From NCBI RefSeq assembly GCF_003148775.1, contig NZ_QGGW01000008.1, forward strand, positions 124,001-188,000: DNA of 64,000 bases, read 5' to 3'. Positions 4,263 to 42,403 of this stretch are shown here, in pieces. The DNA comes from Roseicyclus mahoneyensis. Its GTDB lineage: Bacteria > Pseudomonadota > Alphaproteobacteria > Rhodobacterales > Rhodobacteraceae. Within the stretch, counting starts at the first letter, position 1, and every line of letters starts with the position of its first letter. The notes beneath the pieces are model-generated. The model saw only the letters and a program-made list of their open reading frames with translations, searched no databases and was not told where the DNA came from. The position numbers and the translations under genes were made by a program.

Positions 4263-4534
4263 GCTGTCCCCCAGTTGGTCGTCAGCACCAAAAAGGCCAC
4301 GTTGGCGCAGAGGCCAAGGGCTGGGGCGGTCAGGATCCAGCCATCGCGCCCGCTGGGCCGGATCACGAAATGATCCAGCGCGATGGCACCCAACAGGATC
4401 AGCGTCAAAACGGGCAGAGCGAAAACCGCCCCGCCGGTCAGGATCATCAAGCCCAGCAGCGGGCCGATCAGCAGCAGGTGGGCCGCCACGGCCGCGCCGA
4501 TGAACAGCAAGATGTCCCGGACACGGGCGCTCAT
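4259..4534 (-). CDS. Small membrane protein of unknown function (91 aa)
   Basis: Starts at MSARVRDILL, whose ATG overlaps the stop of the upstream ABC permease (ATGA at 4531-4534), and ends overlapping a GTG start. Nearly the whole chain is hydrophobic, with three probable helices (LLFIGAAVAAHLLLIGPLLG, VFALPVLTLILLGAIALDHF, ILTAPALGLCANVAFLVL). Length and hydrophobicity suggest a compact integral membrane protein. It is the first of three small membrane genes inserted between the two permease genes of the transporter. Confidence 0.62.
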   Translation of the reverse strand: MSARVRDILLFIGAAVAAHLLLIGPLLGLMILTGGAVFALPVLTLILLGAIALDHFVIRPSGRDGWILTAPALGLCANVAFLVLTTNWGTA

Positions 4535-5616
4535 GCTGTTGCCTTCCGTCGCCATGTGACGCGGAAATTGGCCAGCACATCCAGCGCGAGCAGGAAGAAC
4601 AGGAGCATCCCCTGAAACGCCTGGATGGCCGCCGCCGGGATGCCCAGCATCAGTTGCGCCAGTTCCCCTCCGATGAAGGTGAGCGCCAGCAAAATCCCCG
4701 CCAGCAAGATGCCGATGGGGTTGAGCCGCCCGAGGAAAGCCACGATGATCGCGGTGAACCCGTAGCCTACGTTGAAATCGATCGAGATGCGGGCCGCGGG
4801 TCCCGAAACCTCGAACAGGCCTGCGGCGCCGGCCAGCGCCCCCGACACGCCCATGCACAAGATCACCAACCGCGCGGCGTTCACGCCGCCAAAACGCGCG
4901 GCGCGGGGCGCCTCGCCCGCCAGCCGGATCTGGTAGCCCAGGATGTGGCGCGAGAAGATCACATAGGCCGCGATCACCGACACAAAGGCCGCCAGAACGC
5001 CCCAATGCATCCCCGTGCCCGCGATGAGTTCGGGGTTATCGGTGCCTGGATGGCGCGCGAGGTTACGCGATCCCGGAAAGCCCGAGCCTTCGGGATTGCG
5101 CAGCCAGCCAGTCGCCGCCGAGGCCAGCATCGCCTCGGCGACATAGACCAAAAGCAGCGAGACAAGGATTTCATTGGTCCGCGCGTAGACCCTGAGCAGC
5201 GCCGGGATCATTGCCCAGAGAAACCCGCCCAAAAGCCCCGCCACGATCATGCCTGGAAAGATCAGCGGGTGTGCCGACGGCCAGAAGGCAAGCCCGAAGG
5301 CCGCCCCGCAGATCGCGCCGACGATGTATTGCCCCTCGGCCCCGATGTTCCAGATGCCCGCCCGAAACCCCAGCGACAGCCCGATCGCGATCAAGATCAG
5401 CGGCCCCGCCTTGACCAGCAGTTGCGGCCGCGAAAAGCCCGCGAAGCGTTCGGAAAAAAGGGGGTCCCAGAAGATGATGCGGATCGCCTCCACTGGGTCC
5501 TTGCCAAGGGAGGCGAACATCAGCCCGCCCGCGATCATGGTCAGCACGACCGCCAGAACCGGCGCGCCCACCACCCAGAACCGAGAGGGCTGCGGGCGTT
5601 TTTCCAGCACGATCAC
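4531..5616 (-). CDS. BMP-type ABC transporter permease, first subunit
   Basis: A 361-residue inner-membrane permease of the BPD_transp_2 family. A hydrophobic helix begins at residue 15 (VVGAPVLAVVLTMIAGGLMF); the segment 'FRAGIWNIGAEGQYIVGAI' is the hallmark stretch of BMP/nucleoside permeases, and several further helices follow to the C-terminus. Its ATG overlaps the stop of the ATPase gene by four bases, and its stop overlaps the next small gene, showing coupled translation. It would form the membrane channel together with the permease at 2736-3659. Confidence 0.93.
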   Translation of the reverse strand: MIVLEKRPQPSRFWVVGAPVLAVVLTMIAGGLMFASLGKDPVEAIRIIFWDPLFSERFAGFSRPQLLVKAGPLILIAIGLSLGFRAGIWNIGAEGQYIVGAICGAAFGLAFWPSAHPLIFPGMIVAGLLGGFLWAMIPALLRVYARTNEILVSLLLVYVAEAMLASAATGWLRNPEGSGFPGSRNLARHPGTDNPELIAGTGMHWGVLAAFVSVIAAYVIFSRHILGYQIRLAGEAPRAARFGGVNAARLVILCMGVSGALAGAAGLFEVSGPAARISIDFNVGYGFTAIIVAFLGRLNPIGILLAGILLALTFIGGELAQLMLGIPAAAIQAFQGMLLFFLLALDVLANFRVTWRRKATA

Positions 5617-36760: not shown

Positions 36761-36790
36761 TTCGCAATCCCTCTTCCAACCTGTTAAAAT
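36761..36790 (+). promoter_or_regulatory. Possible tolQ promoter
   Basis: TTCGCA (36761-36766) and TAAAAT (36785-36790), spaced by 18 bases, lie about 70 bases upstream of the tolQ ATG in an AT-richer patch. It may start the tolQRAB transcript independently of ybgC. Confidence 0.3.
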
Positions 36791-36860: not shown

Positions 36861-37553
36861 ATGGAAACTGAAACGCTCGCTCTGGCGCAAGAGGCGGATT
36901 ATACCCTCATTGCGCTGTTTTTCCGCGCAACCTTCATCGTGCAGGCGGTCATGCTCGGCCTGATCGTGGCCTCGGTCTGGGTCTGGGCGATCACCTTCAC
37001 CAAGGTCAAGATGTTCCGCAGTGCCCGCAGCAATGCGGCGGCCTTCGATTCCGCCTTCTGGTCGGGCGAACCGCTGGACGAGCTTTACGAGCAAATGGCC
37101 GATGCCCCCGCCAGCGCCTATGAGCGCGTCTTTGTCGCGGGCATGACCGAATGGCGCAGATCATTGCGCGACGACGGGGGCTTGATCCCCGGCGTTCAGC
37201 AGCGCGTCGATCGGTCGATGGACGTGGCCATAGGGCGCGAAAGCGAACGCTGGACCAACGGGTTGAACTTTCTCGCCACCACCGGCTCGGCGGCGCCCTT
37301 CGTGGGCCTGTTCGGCACGGTCTGGGGGATCATGCGGTCGTTCCAGGAAATCGCCATTTCCGGCAACACCTCTCTGGCGGTCGTCGCACCCGGTATCGCC
37401 GAGGCGCTCTTGGCCACCGGCCTTGGCCTTCTGGCCGCCATCCCGGCCGTGATCCTCTACAACAAGCTCAGCGCCGATGCCGACAGCCTTGTCAGTGGTC
37501 TGGAAGGTTTTGCCGACGAGTTCTCAACTCTGCTGTCGCGGCAGCTTGACTGA
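36861..37553 (+). CDS. tolQ: Tol-Pal system inner-membrane protein TolQ
   Basis: A 230-residue proton-channel component that energises TolA with TolR. It shows the three-helix ExbB/TolQ layout: helix 1 '[22 protein letters not shown]', a large cytosolic loop, then '[24 protein letters not shown]' and '[23 protein letters not shown]', which contain the conserved channel-lining residues. The ATG at 36861 (METETL) is preferred over one that would read through the promoter region. Its stop overlaps the tolR start (TGATG). Confidence 0.95.
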
Positions 37554-38026
37554 TGGGCGTCTCGGTTTCCAAGGGCAGCGGCACGCGGCGGCGGGGCAGG
37601 GGGCGGCGCGACAGCCTCAAGCCGATGTCCGAGATCAACGTGACGCCCTTCGTGGATGTCATGCTGTGCCTGCTCATCATCTTCATGGTGGCAGCGCCCC
37701 TGATGACCGTGGGCGTGCCCATCAACCTGCCCGACACCTCGGCCGAAGCCCTGCCGACCGAGCAGGAGGAGCCGCTGACGATCACCATGACGCCCGAGGG
37801 CGATGTGATGATCCAGACAACGTCTGTCCCGCTGGACGAGTTGGTTACGCGCCTTCAGGCGATCGCCGCCGAGCGGGATTCGACGCGTGTTTTCCTGCGC
37901 GCCGATGGCGGCATCCCCTACGAGGACGTGATGCGCGTGATGGGTGCGCTGAACGCCGGCGGCTTCCGCGAGATCGGTCTGGTGACCGATGCCGGTGGAC
38001 CGCGGCTTGACGGCAGTGGACGGTGA
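37553..38026 (+). CDS. tolR: Tol-Pal system protein TolR
   Basis: A 157-residue single-pass protein. A basic N-terminus (SGTRRRGRGRRDSLKP) precedes 'SEINVTPFVDVMLCLLIIFMV', the helix with the essential channel Asp. The periplasmic part (ITMTPEGDVMIQTTSVPLDEL to VMGALNAGGFREIGLVTD) is the ExbD/TolR domain. It forms the proton path with TolQ. tolA follows after 16 bases. Confidence 0.95.
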   Translation: MGVSVSKGSGTRRRGRGRRDSLKPMSEINVTPFVDVMLCLLIIFMVAAPLMTVGVPINLPDTSAEALPTEQEEPLTITMTPEGDVMIQTTSVPLDELVTRLQAIAAERDSTRVFLRADGGIPYEDVMRVMGALNAGGFREIGLVTDAGGPRLDGSGR

Positions 38027-38042
38027 GGGGGCAGCGAACGCG

Positions 38043-39167
38043 ATGCGCCGGTCCCTTTACGCCTCGACAGCGATCCACGCCGCGATCCTTCTTTGGGTCG
38101 CGTTTGGCGATGGGCTGTTCCGCGAGAGCGACCCGGTGGACTTCGAGATTACCGGCGTCACCATCTTGTCCACGGCGGAATTCGAGGCGCTGACCGCCGC
38201 TGTCGAACCGACTCCCGCCGCCGTGGCGACCACGCCCGAACCGCGCCCCTCCACGCCCGAACCGCCCCCTCCGCCGCCCGAGCCCGAGCCCGCCCCGCCG
38301 CCCGAGCCGCAGCCCGAGGCGCCGCCCCCCGAACCCGCGCCCCAGCCAGAACCGACGCCGCCCGGCGAGGTGACGGACACGATCGCGCCGCCCGCACCTT
38401 TGGCGGGCGCGCCCGATCTGCCGCCCAGCACGCGCCCGACGCCGCGCGCCAGCGATCGCATCGCGCCCTTGCCAGCGCCTGCGCCCGAGGAAGACGTGGC
38501 CGTCGCGCCAGAGGTCGTTCCCGAAGCGGCCGAGCCCGCACCGGCCGAGGTCGTGGTCGAGGCCCAGCCCGAGGCTGCGCCCGAGGAAGCCACAACCGAG
38601 ATCGTGACCGAGGCCGAAACGCCCTCAGGTGGCCCGCTCGGACCTGTCGCCTCGATCCGGCCCCCCACGCGACCCAACCGGCCCGAGCCGCAGCAGGCGG
38701 CCGCTCCCGCGCCGGACCCGACGCCGGCGCCACCCACGCCCACTCCGGACCCCGCGCCGACATCCGACCCGCTGGCCGATGCCATCGCCTCGGCCGTCGC
38801 GGATGCCGTCAGCGACCCCGGCCCGCCCGCGCAACCGTCGGGCCCGCCGCTGAGTGCGGGGGCGCGCGACGGGTTCCGCATCGCGGTGCAGACCTGCTGG
38901 AACGTCGGCTCGCTTTCGACCGAGGCGCAAGGCACGACCGTGGTCGTCGGTTTCGACATGGATCGTGAGGCCAAGCCGGTCGAAGGGTCCTTGCGAATGG
39001 TCACCTTCAGTGGCGGTAGTCAGGCCGCCGCCCAACAGGCCTTCGAGGCCGCGCGCCGCGCGATTTTGCGCTGCGGGGCGAACGGCTACGGCCTGCCTGT
39101 CGAAAGCTACGATCACTGGCGGCAGGTCGAGATTTCCTTCAACCCCGACGGGATGCGCCTGAGATGA
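38043..39167 (+). CDS. tolA: Tol-Pal system protein TolA
   Basis: A 374-residue protein linking the inner-membrane motor to outer-membrane Pal/TolB. The N-terminal helix is 'LYASTAIHAAILLWVAFGDGLF'; the long middle is Pro/Glu/Ala-rich (many PEP, PAP repeats) rather than the Lys/Ala helix of enterobacteria; the C-terminal TonB-like domain begins near residue 275 ('[20 protein letters not shown]'). Two cysteines (CWN and RCGANGYG) likely form a disulfide. The ATG at 38043 is preferred; GTG at 38017 is an alternative. The next gene repeats the C-terminal domain. Confidence 0.92.
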   Translation: MRRSLYASTAIHAAILLWVAFGDGLFRESDPVDFEITGVTILSTAEFEALTAAVEPTPAAVATTPEPRPSTPEPPPPPPEPEPAPPPEPQPEAPPPEPAPQPEPTPPGEVTDTIAPPAPLAGAPDLPPSTRPTPRASDRIAPLPAPAPEEDVAVAPEVVPEAAEPAPAEVVVEAQPEAAPEEATTEIVTEAETPSGGPLGPVASIRPPTRPNRPEPQQAAAPAPDPTPAPPTPTPDPAPTSDPLADAIASAVADAVSDPGPPAQPSGPPLSAGARDGFRIAVQTCWNVGSLSTEAQGTTVVVGFDMDREAKPVEGSLRMVTFSGGSQAAAQQAFEAARRAILRCGANGYGLPVESYDHWRQVEISFNPDGMRLR

Positions 39168-39550
39168 TCGCGAGGTTTGGCTGTACAGCTCTTTTGTCGC
39201 TAACCCCTTCGGTCGCAATTGGTCAGATTGTGACTGCGCCTGAGGGGTACGAAATCCTTGCCGCTACGGTTTCGTCTTGTTGGAATCTCGGCTCCCTAAG
39301 CACTGAGGCGCAGAACGTTAAAGTTACTCTATCGGTCGCTTTAGGAAGTGATGGGCGACCCAGTGACGGAACGCTCCGCCTTGTTGCTTTCAGCGGCACA
39401 AACAATGCCGCTGGTCAACAGGCCTACGAAGCTGCGCGTCGTGCGATGCTTCGGTGTGGCGTGAACGGCTACGACCTATCGGCAAATGAAGGGCCCTGGC
39501 CCCAGACCATCGAGATCACATTCGATCCATCCGGGGCATCCGACCGATGA
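39164..39550 (+). CDS. Free-standing secreted TolA C-terminal-domain protein
   Basis: A 128-residue product with a signal peptide ([20 protein letters not shown]) and then one TolA-III-like domain. By eye about half of its residues match the end of Tol[13 protein letters not shown] against [22 protein letters not shown] against GSLRMVTFSG, and [19 protein letters not shown] against QQAFEAARRAILRCGANGY, both cysteines included. There is no anchor helix or proline-rich stalk, so it should be soluble in the periplasm. Its ATG overlaps the tolA stop. Codons are clearly AT-richer (TTT, GTT, TTA, AAA) than in tolA, suggesting separate origin. It could bind TolB, Pal or TolA, or act as a decoy for phages or bacteriocins that use TolA. 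Confidence 0.85.
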
Positions 39551-39615
39551 CCCGGACCCGTTTTCCCCTTATCCTTCCATCCGAAAGCCGCCCCGCGCGG
39601 CAGGAGGTGCTCCCC

Positions 39616-40965
39616 ATGCCGACCCCCATACTGACCCGTCGCTCCCTGATCCTGACCGGCTCCGCGCTGGCCGCCAGCCCGCTTCTGCCAGCCCGCGCCC
39701 GCGCGCAGACCGGGCCGCTCAGGATCGAGATCACCGAGGGTGTGATCGAACCTCTTCCCTTCGCCATCCCCAGCTTCATCGCCCGCAATGGCGCTGCGGC
39801 GGACGCAGCGGCCGACATCACCCGCGTCATCGCTGCCGATTTGCGCGGCACGGGCCTGTTCCGGCAGATCCCCGACACGGCACATATCTCGACCGTGACC
39901 AGCTTCGACGCGCCGATCCTCTATCCCGATTGGCAGGCGATCAATGCGCAGGCCCTTATCGTGGGCGAGGTCGAGGAACAGGGCGGGCGCCTGATCGTGC
40001 GCTTCCGCCTCTTCGACGTGTTCAGCCAGCAGCCTCTGGGCGAGGGGCTGCAGTTTGTCGGCGCGCGCGATGGCTGGCGCCGCATGGCGCATAACGTCGC
40101 CGATCAGGTCTATGAGCGTATTACCGGCGAGACCGGCTATTTCGACACCCGCGTGGTTTTCGTGCATGAGGAAGGGCCGAAAAACGCCCGCCTCAAACGC
40201 ATCGCGCTGATGGATTACGATGGCGCAAACGTCCAGTTCCTGACCGATAGCCGCAACCTTGTGCTGGCACCGCGTTTCAGCCCGACGGGCGACCGGATCA
40301 TCTACACCAGCTACGAGAGCGGCCAGCCCCGCGTCTATCTGATGGATATCGCCAACCTGCAGCCCCGGCCACTGGAGGCCGTGTCGGCAGGCAACATGAC
40401 CTTCTCGCCGCGCTTCACCCCCGATGGTGGCAGCGTGGTGTTCTCGATGGAGCAGGGTGGCAATTCCGACATCTACCGCGTCAGCGTCGGCGGCGGGTCG
40501 CGGACCCAGCTGACCAACGCCCCCTCGATCGAGACGGCGCCGTCGTTCTCGCCCGATGGCAGCCAGATGGTGTTCGAGAGCGACCGCACCGGCGGGCAGC
40601 AGATCTATGTCATGCCCGCCGGCGGCGGCGAGCCTGCGCGGATCAGCCGGGGCACCGGGCGCTACGGCACGCCCGTCTGGTCGCCCCGCGGCGACTACAT
40701 CGCTTTCACCAAACAAGAGGCCGGGCGCTTCCACATCGGCGTCATGCGGACCAACGGGTCCGAGGAGCGGCTGTTGACGGCCTCCTTCCTAGACGAAGGA
40801 CCGACATGGGCGCCCAATGGCCGCGTCTTGATGTTCACCCGCGAAACCGCAGGTGCCGATGGCGCGCCCGCCGTCTATTCCGTCGACATCTCGGGCCGGA
40901 ACCTGCAACGGGTGGCGACACCCGGCATGGCATCGGATCCGTCCTGGTCGCCCCGCCTTCCGTGA
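39616..40965 (+). CDS. tolB: Tol-Pal system periplasmic protein TolB
   Basis: A 449-residue beta-propeller protein that binds Pal and TolA. The signal peptide carries twin arginines ([18 protein letters not shown]), which resembles a Tat signal, ahead of the cleavage region ARAQ. An N-terminal alpha/beta domain ([19 protein letters not shown]) is followed by propeller repeats such as [19 protein letters not shown], '[19 protein letters not shown]' and [25 protein letters not shown] lies eight bases before the ATG at 39616; an ATG at 39547 overlapping the previous stop would add 23 residues ahead of the signal peptide. Confidence 0.95.
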
Positions 40966-41044: not shown

Positions 41045-41557
41045 ATGACCATCCGTTTTCGCGCTGCGGCGCTCATTCTCATCGCGGCCCTTTCCGTATC
41101 GGCCTGTGCCCGTGGCGGCTTGTCCGATGGCGCTGCCGGCGGTGCCGGCTTCAACGGCGCGGGGGGCATTGGTTCCGCCTCCGACCCCACCTCCATCGCC
41201 TTCTTCAACCAGTCGGTCGGCGACCGCGTGCTGTTCGCAGTGGATCAGTCCACCCTGACCGTCGAGGCGCAGTCGATCCTGACCGCGCAGGCGCAGTGGC
41301 TGCTCACCAACCGTGAATACCTCGCGCTGATCGAAGGCCATGCCGACGAACAGGGCACACGCGAATACAACCTTGCGTTGGGTGCGCGTCGGGCATCCGC
41401 CGTGCGCGATTTCCTCGTGTCGCAAGGCGTGCCCACCAGCCGCCTGTCGACCGTCAGCTACGGCAAGGAGCGTCCGATCGAGATCTGTTCGGCCGAATCC
41501 TGCTACCAGCAGAACCGCCGCGCCGTGACGGTTCTGTCTGCCGGCGCCGGGGTCTGA
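41045..41557 (+). CDS. pal: Peptidoglycan-associated lipoprotein Pal
   Basis: A 170-residue outer-membrane lipoprotein anchoring the envelope to peptidoglycan. Lipobox LSVSAC (Cys21 acylated), a glycine-rich spacer, then the OmpA-like domain: 'VLFAVDQSTLTVEAQSILTAQ', IEGHADEQGTREYNLALGARRA and 'LSTVSYGKERPI', including the Asp and Arg that bind diaminopimelate. It ends the core Tol-Pal set; cpoB starts three bases later. Confidence 0.97.
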   Translation: MTIRFRAAALILIAALSVSACARGGLSDGAAGGAGFNGAGGIGSASDPTSIAFFNQSVGDRVLFAVDQSTLTVEAQSILTAQAQWLLTNREYLALIEGHADEQGTREYNLALGARRASAVRDFLVSQGVPTSRLSTVSYGKERPIEICSAESCYQQNRRAVTVLSAGAGV

Positions 41558-41560
41558 TCC

Positions 41561-42403
41561 ATGCGGCGCGCCCGCGCTCTCACCCCGGTTCTGGCGATCT
41601 GCCTTGCCCTGTCCGCGCCCATGGGCTTGACACAGGACCGGACGCAGACGCTGGCCGACATCCGGCAGGAACTTTCGGTCCTCTTCGTCGAGATCCAGCG
41701 CCTGCGCGGTGAGTTGAACACCACCGGCGGCGTGCAGGGCGGCGGGGGTGGCGGCACGGTTCTCGCCAGGGTCGACGCCATCGAGGCCGAGTTGCGCCGC
41801 CTGACCGGCCTGACCGAGCAGTTGCAGATCCGCGTTGACCGGATCGTGACCGATGGTACCAACCGGATCGGCGATCTGGAATTCCGGCTGTGTGAACTGG
41901 AACAGGGGTGCAGCCTCGGCTCGCTCGGCCAGACGCCCAGCCTCGGCGGGGTCGAGGTGCAGCAAGGTGCAGGCGCTGTCGCGCCCGCCACCCCGTCGCA
42001 GCCGGGCGGGGCAAATCTGGCCGTTGCCGAACAAAGCGATTTCGACCGCGCCCGCACCGCCTATGAAAGCGGCGATTACGCGCAGGCCGCACAATTGCTC
42101 GAGGCCTTCACCCAGACCTACCCCGGTGGCCCGATGTCGGCCGAGGCGCATTTCCTGCGCGGCGAGGCCGAGGTGTTCCAGGGTGCGTGGAACCGCGCTG
42201 CCCGCGCCTATCTCGACGCCTTCACCGCCAACCCCGAAGGCCCGCGCGCGCCCGGTGCCCTGTTTCAACTGGGCCGGTCGCTGGCGCAGCTTGGCCAGAC
42301 CGACGAAGCCTGCCTGACCTTGGGCGAGGTCGGCCTGCGCTATCCCGGCGATATGGCGGCGGGTCAGGCGGCAGACCTGCGCAACAGCCTCGGGTGTTCG
42401 TGA
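41561..42403 (+). CDS. cpoB: Cell division coordinator CpoB (YbgF)
   Basis: A 280-residue periplasmic protein. A signal peptide (MRRARALTPVLAICLALSAP) leads to a coiled-coil part (DIRQELSVLFVEIQRLRGEL), a Gly-rich linker, a second coiled coil and C-terminal TPR repeats (AYESGDYAQAAQLLEAFTQTYP, AHFLRGEAEVFQGAWNRAA). It links Tol-Pal to septal peptidoglycan synthesis in other bacteria. Its TGA overlaps the GTG start of tilS. Confidence 0.92.
   Translation: MRRARALTPVLAICLALSAPMGLTQDRTQTLADIRQELSVLFVEIQRLRGELNTTGGVQGGGGGGTVLARVDAIEAELRRLTGLTEQLQIRVDRIVTDGTNRIGDLEFRLCELEQGCSLGSLGQTPSLGGVEVQQGAGAVAPATPSQPGGANLAVAEQSDFDRARTAYESGDYAQAAQLLEAFTQTYPGGPMSAEAHFLRGEAEVFQGAWNRAARAYLDAFTANPEGPRAPGALFQLGRSLAQLGQTDEACLTLGEVGLRYPGDMAAGQAADLRNSLGCS

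Follow-up and report, generated by a model that had tools for sequence, protein, structure and literature searches.

A stand-alone, exported-looking TolA C-terminal domain encoded between tolA and tolB in Roseicyclus mahoneyensis and a minority of its relatives

The tol operon of Roseicyclus mahoneyensis carries, between tolA and tolB, a short gene whose product is predicted to be a soluble, exported protein paralogous to the C-terminal domain of TolA, in effect a liberated TolA-III. Genes of this kind are a constrained and recurrent extra member of some tol operons. We analysed a window of 64,000 nucleotides (contig NZ_QGGW01000008.1, positions 124,001 to 188,000), for which a first-pass annotation had described a 128-residue secreted TolA-III at this site; the open reading frame, the identity to the neighbouring TolA and the predicted fold all bear that description out. 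Free periplasmic TolA-III has been expressed artificially in E. coli, whereas the domain described here is natural and encoded beside tolA. Judged by titles and abstract openings, the papers listed in searches of the open-licence literature included no report of a natural stand-alone TolA-III. The parts of one survey covered here (PMC12204202) describe tol-pal gene order as conserved and do not mention such a gene; those of PMC10470753 name the R. sphaeroides unit tolQRAB, with no extra gene, and state that its tol genes are known or predicted to be essential.

The gene and its setting in the tol cluster

The gene order in the window is tolQ, tolR, tolA, the stand-alone TolA-III gene (hereafter the copy), tolB, pal and cpoB:

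36861..37553, + strand: tolQ (position and sequence)
37553..38026, + strand: tolR (position and sequence)
37989..39167, + strand: tolA as the longest open reading frame; the likelier start is ATG 38043, just before the membrane helix MRRSLYASTAIHAAILLW
38859..39164, + strand: tolA domain III, with the C-terminal tail FNPDGMRLR (sequence comparison)
39164..39167, + strand: ATGA, where the start of the TolA-III gene overlaps the tolA stop (sequence)
39164..39550, + strand: stand-alone TolA-III gene, 128 aa, exported-looking (open reading frame list, BLASTP to TolA, homologues)
39164..39223, + strand: signal-peptide-like segment, residues 1-20, suggested cleavage after AIG (by eye and hydropathy)
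39239..39535, + strand: TolA-III domain, residues 26-124, with C39 and C98 (AlphaFold2 model, structure matches)
39551..39615, + strand: spacer of 65 nt, with Shine-Dalgarno AGGAGG at 39602-39607 (alignment with relatives)
39616..40965, + strand: tolB from its likely start (TolB_N and PD40 matches), the mature protein carrying the TolB N-terminal stretch; the open reading frame list starts it at 39547
41045..41557, + strand: pal (OmpA family match)
41561..42403, + strand: cpoB (ybgF) (TPR repeats, weak TolA_bind_tri match)

The ATG at 39164 overlaps the TGA stop of tolA (39165-39167), and inspection of the sequence just 5' of this ATG revealed nothing resembling a Shine-Dalgarno site. From these two features, translation of the copy is probably dependent on, and coupled to, that of tolA. 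At its other end, the stop of the copy is overlapped by ATG 39547, at which the longest tolB open reading frame begins. This frame is probably mis-started and ATG 39616 the tolB start, because a genus-wide AGGAGG precedes ATG 39616 and spacer lengths agree. The AGGAGG before the tolB ATG is common to relatives of the genus, with a variant, AGAGGT, at locus L048. From the stop of the copy to the tolB ATG, the spacer is 65 nt in the window, 65 in genome G008 and 64 in G010, and in six relatives that lack the copy, tolA and tolB are 61-64 nt apart. From these matching lengths, the stand-alone gene lies after the tolA stop and ahead of the original tolA-tolB spacer. The spacer of G002 differs from that of the other copy-bearing relatives. 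A promoter scan returned one promoter-like site, at 36761-36790 (shuffles average 0.5), and no Rfam family reached its gathering score.

The product is predicted to be exported from a by-eye and hydropathy reading of its start, and its domain begins no more than about 6 residues past the point of likely cleavage. By the same kind of reading, the 20-residue signal-peptide-like start is all that precedes it: the TolQR-engaging N-terminal membrane helix is not present, and the periplasm-spanning domain II, which has 110-335 residues in the survey as covered here (PMC12204202), is missing. CpoB and TolB, periplasmic products of the same cluster, have unrelated domains, whereas the copy is a TolA paralogue found in a minority of genomes.

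Fold and residues of the copy

Against the neighbouring TolA, the copy is identical at 47 of 98 positions by BLASTP (48%; E 3e-23 for that single comparison), and the motifs and cysteine pair that the first-pass annotation had seen in both proteins are indeed common to them, the pair being C39 and C98 of the copy. An AlphaFold2 model built from 31 aligned sequences (mean pLDDT 79.5) has the element order helix, strand, strand, helix, strand. Its nearest solved structure is 1TOL (Z 9.9, 2.2 Å over 87 residues); other matches include 1LR0 (Z 8.9) and 6S3W, TolA-III with a TolB peptide (Z 8.7, rmsd 5.5). All seven solved entries at Z ≥8 contain TolA-III and TonB-type domains rank next, on a scale where a Z of 7-8 is common with the comparison tool used. 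With Foldseek alone, the model had no match below E 0.001. The predicted TolA-III fold is thus assigned jointly from match rank, coverage and sequence identity, and the copy shares with TolA both this domain III fold and a place in the tolQRAB operon.

General family libraries contributed little. Pfam returned 0 families up to E 1 for the copy, likewise 0 for its own TolA, and phmmer against solved structures gave a single chance-level match. NCBIfam had no match for the copy, including TIGR02794 (tolA_full, curated cut-off 59.45), against which the window's own TolA scores only 14.4 bits, so this family does not cover this bacterial group. With Pfam and NCBIfam blank, homology of the copy is based on direct comparison and purpose-built profiles. 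HasB, a TonB paralogue treated in the covered parts of PMC12204202, is likewise a member of a duplicated force-transducer family, and its domain (2M2K) matches the model at Z 5.1; the copy differs from HasB in having no membrane anchor and in lying in the tol operon.

Residues were compared across 34 domains from TolA and 26 from copies. The copies keep, at 85-100%, both cysteines, W, the AARRA helix and the last-strand F (96% for W and for each cysteine, 100% for that F), and 25 of the 26 copies have the core with both cysteines. By contrast, the TolA tail FNPxxMR[LI][RK] is mostly lost: N falls from 74% in TolA to 12% in the copies, M from 85% to 15%, the first R from 85% to 23% and the last R from 82% to 35%, with the copies of G002, G099 and G169 retaining most of it. 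The window copy has PWPQ in place of TolA's DHWR before the last strand, and the helix that AlphaFold places there in TolA-III (residues 86-92) does not appear in its model. No novel motif common to the 26 copies was seen. Taken against TolA domain III, then, the copy is alike in predicted fold, identity, cysteine pair and operon, and differs in standing alone with an export signal, in lacking the membrane helix and spacer, in its lost tail motif and in its faster evolution.

Distribution, origins and constraint

Five of the 13 genomes of the genus (Roseicyclus group; G000, G002, G004, G008 and G010) have a second TolA-III copy, always after tolA; the remaining 8 have TolA only. A profile of these five copies, searched against 394 family genomes (nearly one per genus), gave at least two matches in 38, and in 20 of these coordinates and DNA place a second TolA-III-like open reading frame between tolA and tolB. 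One, in G248, is a fragment, which leaves 19 intact-looking copies. A profile may miss divergent copies, so we inspected the tolA-tolB gap directly in 100 single-match or no-match genomes. Only a short gap was present in 97; the other three were G242, with a divergent copy, G244, with an 80-codon remnant, and G030, with no recognisable tolA beside tolB. An intact-looking copy therefore lies between tolA and tolB in at least 20 of the 394 family genomes (19 by profile, plus G242), a lower bound in that gap inspection covered 100 of the single-match or no-match genomes. Among 27 named loci, tolB was detectable in 26 and the extra gene in 3, namely those of Roseicyclus marinus, Gemmobacter aquatilis and isolate HKCCE4037. 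Stand-alone TolA-III genes next to tolA, which the first-pass annotation had suggested seeking in relatives, thus exist, and the gene is neither absent nor decayed in all of them.

The same 4-nt overlap with tolA recurs in 23 of 29 copies, the start being taken as the first start codon from that offset onward; for the G004 copy, the computed start and overlap were set aside as an artefact of a damaged-looking tolA end. By eye, the copies look exported apart from the membrane-anchored one of G156. Their lengths are mostly 118-236 aa, with long forms of 452 (G156), 516 (HKCCE4037) and 536 aa (G413). The longer ones (189, 236, 452, 516 and 536 aa) are possibly stages between a full second tolA and a bare domain. 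Two of these loci, L111 (G413) and L042 (HKCCE4037), encode long exported-looking proteins with a TolA-III-like C-terminus between tolA and tolB, and G413 has an additional short copy after the 536-aa one. Lipobox matches in the G000, G002, G068 and G402 copies were rejected as the domain's own cysteine; that in the G420 copy is ambiguous.

Loci L232 (G244) and L100 (G248) carry, between tolA and tolB, a second TolA-III that is reduced to a short remnant or fragment. These remnants suggest that the stand-alone gene is sometimes lost. Because it is absent from most relatives and remnants exist, the copy is dispensable, an accessory rather than a core part of Tol.

The arrangement also extends beyond the family. 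We searched a second profile against 192 genomes from across the class; 179 were listed, 3 of them members of the family already sampled, and six genomes other than the window's own had two matches, all of which were followed up. A short copy lies between tolA and tolB in three: both genomes of genus g464, where one copy has the lipobox LLAGC and the other is soluble, and G546, where the copy has the lipobox LSAC and the gap before tolB is longer. As read from these loci, two further alphaproteobacterial families show the arrangement, and in two cases the copy is a predicted lipoprotein. In G562, two full-length tolA genes stand in tandem and share an identical domain III; in the second gene (L230, G562:C130:35500-40500, - strand), a segment that by eye looks EF-hand-type replaces the usual spacer. 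In G440 and G464 the second match is located elsewhere than tol, and L234 (G440:C2:778500-782000) encodes an exported-looking TolA-III-like protein outside tol on a contig other than that of the best match.

Within the family sample, 18 of the 38 multi-match genomes likewise have their second match away from tol, and we inspected 12 of these (all but G022, G144, G183, G190, G377 and G415). Exported-looking proteins of 228-329 aa with TolA-III at the C-terminus were present in five, at L239 (G112), L237 (G235), L240 (G307), L242 (G333) and L244 (G351); the other seven matches were fragments, split tolA genes, or weak or unclear. The C-terminus of the L240 protein is almost as in its own TolA. 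Exported-looking TolA-III fusion genes also occur on plasmids, at L214:3623-4294 and 4366-5019 (Phaeobacter piscinae plasmid pP36_f) and L215:2512-3279 (a plasmid of Salipiger sp. CCB-MM3). In the plasmid proteins, an N-terminal part of more than 100 residues without a Pfam match precedes the C-terminal TolA-III, and the next gene on the Phaeobacter plasmid matches Plasmid Fertility inhibition factor (PF22162). As exported-looking TolA-III proteins are found away from tol, the free TolA-III theme is wider than the tol slot.

Trees were built without the G248 fragment and G309. The first, of 60 domains and 103 columns, has many unresolved forks, but the copies fall between TolA sequences from their own family. 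Constrained-tree tests rejected a single clade of all 26 copies (p-AU 9.5e-7), and rejected it still when the G002 copy and the G242 and G156 pairs were removed (p 0.015), so that one common origin for all copies is rejected. A second tree, from which the G242 and G156 pairs and the long G413 and HKCCE4037 copies were also removed, groups the copies of G000, G008, G010, G004, G180 and G417 (98/97); long branches are involved, and the first tree does not have this grouping. Within the window's lineage, one old origin followed by fast divergence is possible.

An appearance of several origins could also come from gene conversion, and we saw one partial case. In the G002 copy, the last four 30-nt windows (120 nt or more) are 97-100% identical to its own tolA, against 43-63% for earlier windows (93-100% and 43-60% in a separate comparison), and the near-identical tract spans the long helix, the last strand and the tail. 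This pattern marks conversion with its own tolA and hints at a shared ligand; none was seen in the other short copies compared. Overall, the sequences argue for more than one emergence of such copies at this operon position among related bacteria.

Several origins also bear on whether the copy is a new structural or delivery partner, whose changed surface would bind CpoB, Pal, peptidoglycan enzymes or an outer-membrane protein and not the TolB N-terminus. We regard this as rather improbable. The loss of the tail motif in most copies fits it (M from 85% to 15%, R from 85% to 23%), as do the missing predicted helix before the last strand of the window copy, the lipoprotein forms in two other families and, in exported-looking proteins encoded outside tol, the joining of TolA-III to different N-terminal parts. 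On the other hand, no new motif common to the copies was seen, and one common new ligand becomes less likely with several origins, unless TolA already has that ligand.

Codon composition was the basis on which the first-pass annotation had suggested a separate origin or older divergence. Its observation of AT-richer codons holds in the window, where GC3 is 0.54 for the copy, 0.83 for its own TolA domain III and 0.77-0.86 for ybgC, tolQ, tolR, tolA, tolB, pal, cpoB and ftsH, but not as a general trait: GC3 is 0.54-0.60 in the window and G008 copies, 0.87-0.90 in those of G010, G004 and G014, and up to 0.92 among others. The AT-rich codons are lineage-bound. Older divergence, as opposed to a recent copy, stands; separate origin does so only in part, since GC3 is below that of tolB in 25 of the 29 copies computed, a pattern as compatible with fast-evolving paralogues under weak codon selection as with foreign DNA, and in the trees the copies lie among same-family TolA. 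A mobile element of other Rhodobacterales is a very improbable source of the window copy. Its GC3 of 0.54 would agree with such a source, and so would GYEIL, which it shares, with its spacing directly before the domain, with a Phaeobacter plasmid protein. Both trees, however, join the window copy with that of G008 (99/99 and 96/88), which has the same position, and the grouping with the plasmid protein (p 0.316) is decided neither way. Residues of the plasmid protein before 83 are covered by none of the matches listed across 388 genomes.

Selection was gauged by NG86 dN/dS, with tolB compared over 160 codons. Between G000 and G008, dN/dS of the copy is 0.199 over the whole gene and 0.172 over the mature part, at a saturated dS of 1.7-1.9, against 0.084 for TolA-III and 0.064 for tolB. 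Between G010 and G004 the values are 0.369 for the copy, 0.292 for TolA-III (the G004 tolA end being damaged-looking) and 0.039 for tolB. With a dN of 0.29-0.37, compared with 0.06 for TolA-III, the copy is constrained (dN < dS) yet evolving faster than its parent domain.

Such speed also fits weak constraint, and with it the strongest rival to a dedicated role: birth and death, in which tandem duplicates of the tolA 3' end gain an export signal and linger with no dedicated function. We consider this by-product of repeated duplication unlikely, although much is compatible with it, including the scattered presence (5/13 in the genus, at least 20/394 in the family sample), several origins, remnants, faster evolution than tolA, GC3 below that of tolB in 25 of 29 copies and the tandem second tolA of G562 with its identical domain III. 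What speaks for a function is dN/dS below 1, a core kept with both cysteines in 25 of 26 copies, signal-peptide-like starts, the same 4-nt tolA overlap in 23 of 29 and parallel occurrence in two other families. Even on that reading, the same kind of short exported copy emerging again and again at one slot is a clear case of recurrent domain liberation.

Possible roles at the TolA-TolB interface

In the parts of PMC7066135 covered here, the disordered first 12 residues of TolB bind TolA-III by strand addition and displace TolA's C-terminal element, with a Kd of about 40 uM in E. coli. Our preferred reading, akin to the Tol-Pal competitor suggested in the first-pass annotation and held tentatively, at somewhat less than even confidence, is that the copy is a motor-less TolA-III that binds the TolB N-terminus and tunes TolA-TolB coupling. 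Because the TolA membrane helix and long spacer are missing, it would not be driven by the TolQR motor; it retains the TolA-III core, cysteine pair and last strand, and, because the tolA stop overlaps its start, it is probably produced together with TolA. In the periplasm it could then bind the flexible TolB N-terminus, TolA's natural ligand, without exerting any pull. By occupying or holding free TolB, it would lower or smooth TolA force coupling to TolB-Pal, acting as a competitor, holder or clutch. Low-affinity competition would require the copy protein in abundance. Such genes arise repeatedly after tolA, some with spacer-like stretches and one as a full second TolA; they mostly drop the tail motif, persist under selection and sometimes vanish.

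A more specific version is possible but somewhat more doubtful. Here the motor-less TolA-III would be a dedicated antagonist or clutch that loads or caps the TolB N-terminus and sets the force reaching TolB-Pal in a minority of Rhodobacterales and at least two other families; the lost tail would have changed TolB affinity, and the lipoprotein form would be membrane-fixed in some lineages. The TolB N-terminal stretch was found in all 17 readable sequences among 25 with the copy (86 of 117 without it were readable; the rest were uncounted), and no difference between the 17 and the 86 was seen, so no co-evolution is visible.

The first-pass annotation had also proposed an immunity decoy against phages and colicins, which gained no support. 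In that scheme, the free domain would protect the cell by capturing coat protein of filamentous phages, or bacteriocin domains, that enter by way of TolA-III, and we consider it a long shot. TolA-III is a docking site for both kinds of intruder, with phage g3p on TolB's site and colicin A on the opposite edge in the covered parts of PMC7391070. Fast divergence is compatible with an arms race, and the Phaeobacter plasmid fusion adjoins a fertility-inhibition-like gene. The copy, however, sits in a housekeeping operon and had no match among 50,697 phage records. Zot, a family that is a loose sign of filamentous phage and was also matched in 5 of 14 control genomes, occurred in 0 of the 23 copy-bearing genomes and in 1 of the 26 others; on this base of one match in 49 genomes, no association was seen. 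We know of no TolA-using phage or bacteriocin of these hosts.

Were the tuning reading true, Tol-Pal would not be a fixed five-protein machine, since some lineages would add a regulator made from its own gripping domain, and the copy would offer a natural handle on the limits that TolA-TolB coupling places on Pal mobilisation, vesicle formation and division. At one further locus, L104 (G348:C19:1-2800), both cysteines are lost from TolA domain III and retained in the secreted copy, as if the roles of TolA and the copy had been partly swapped.
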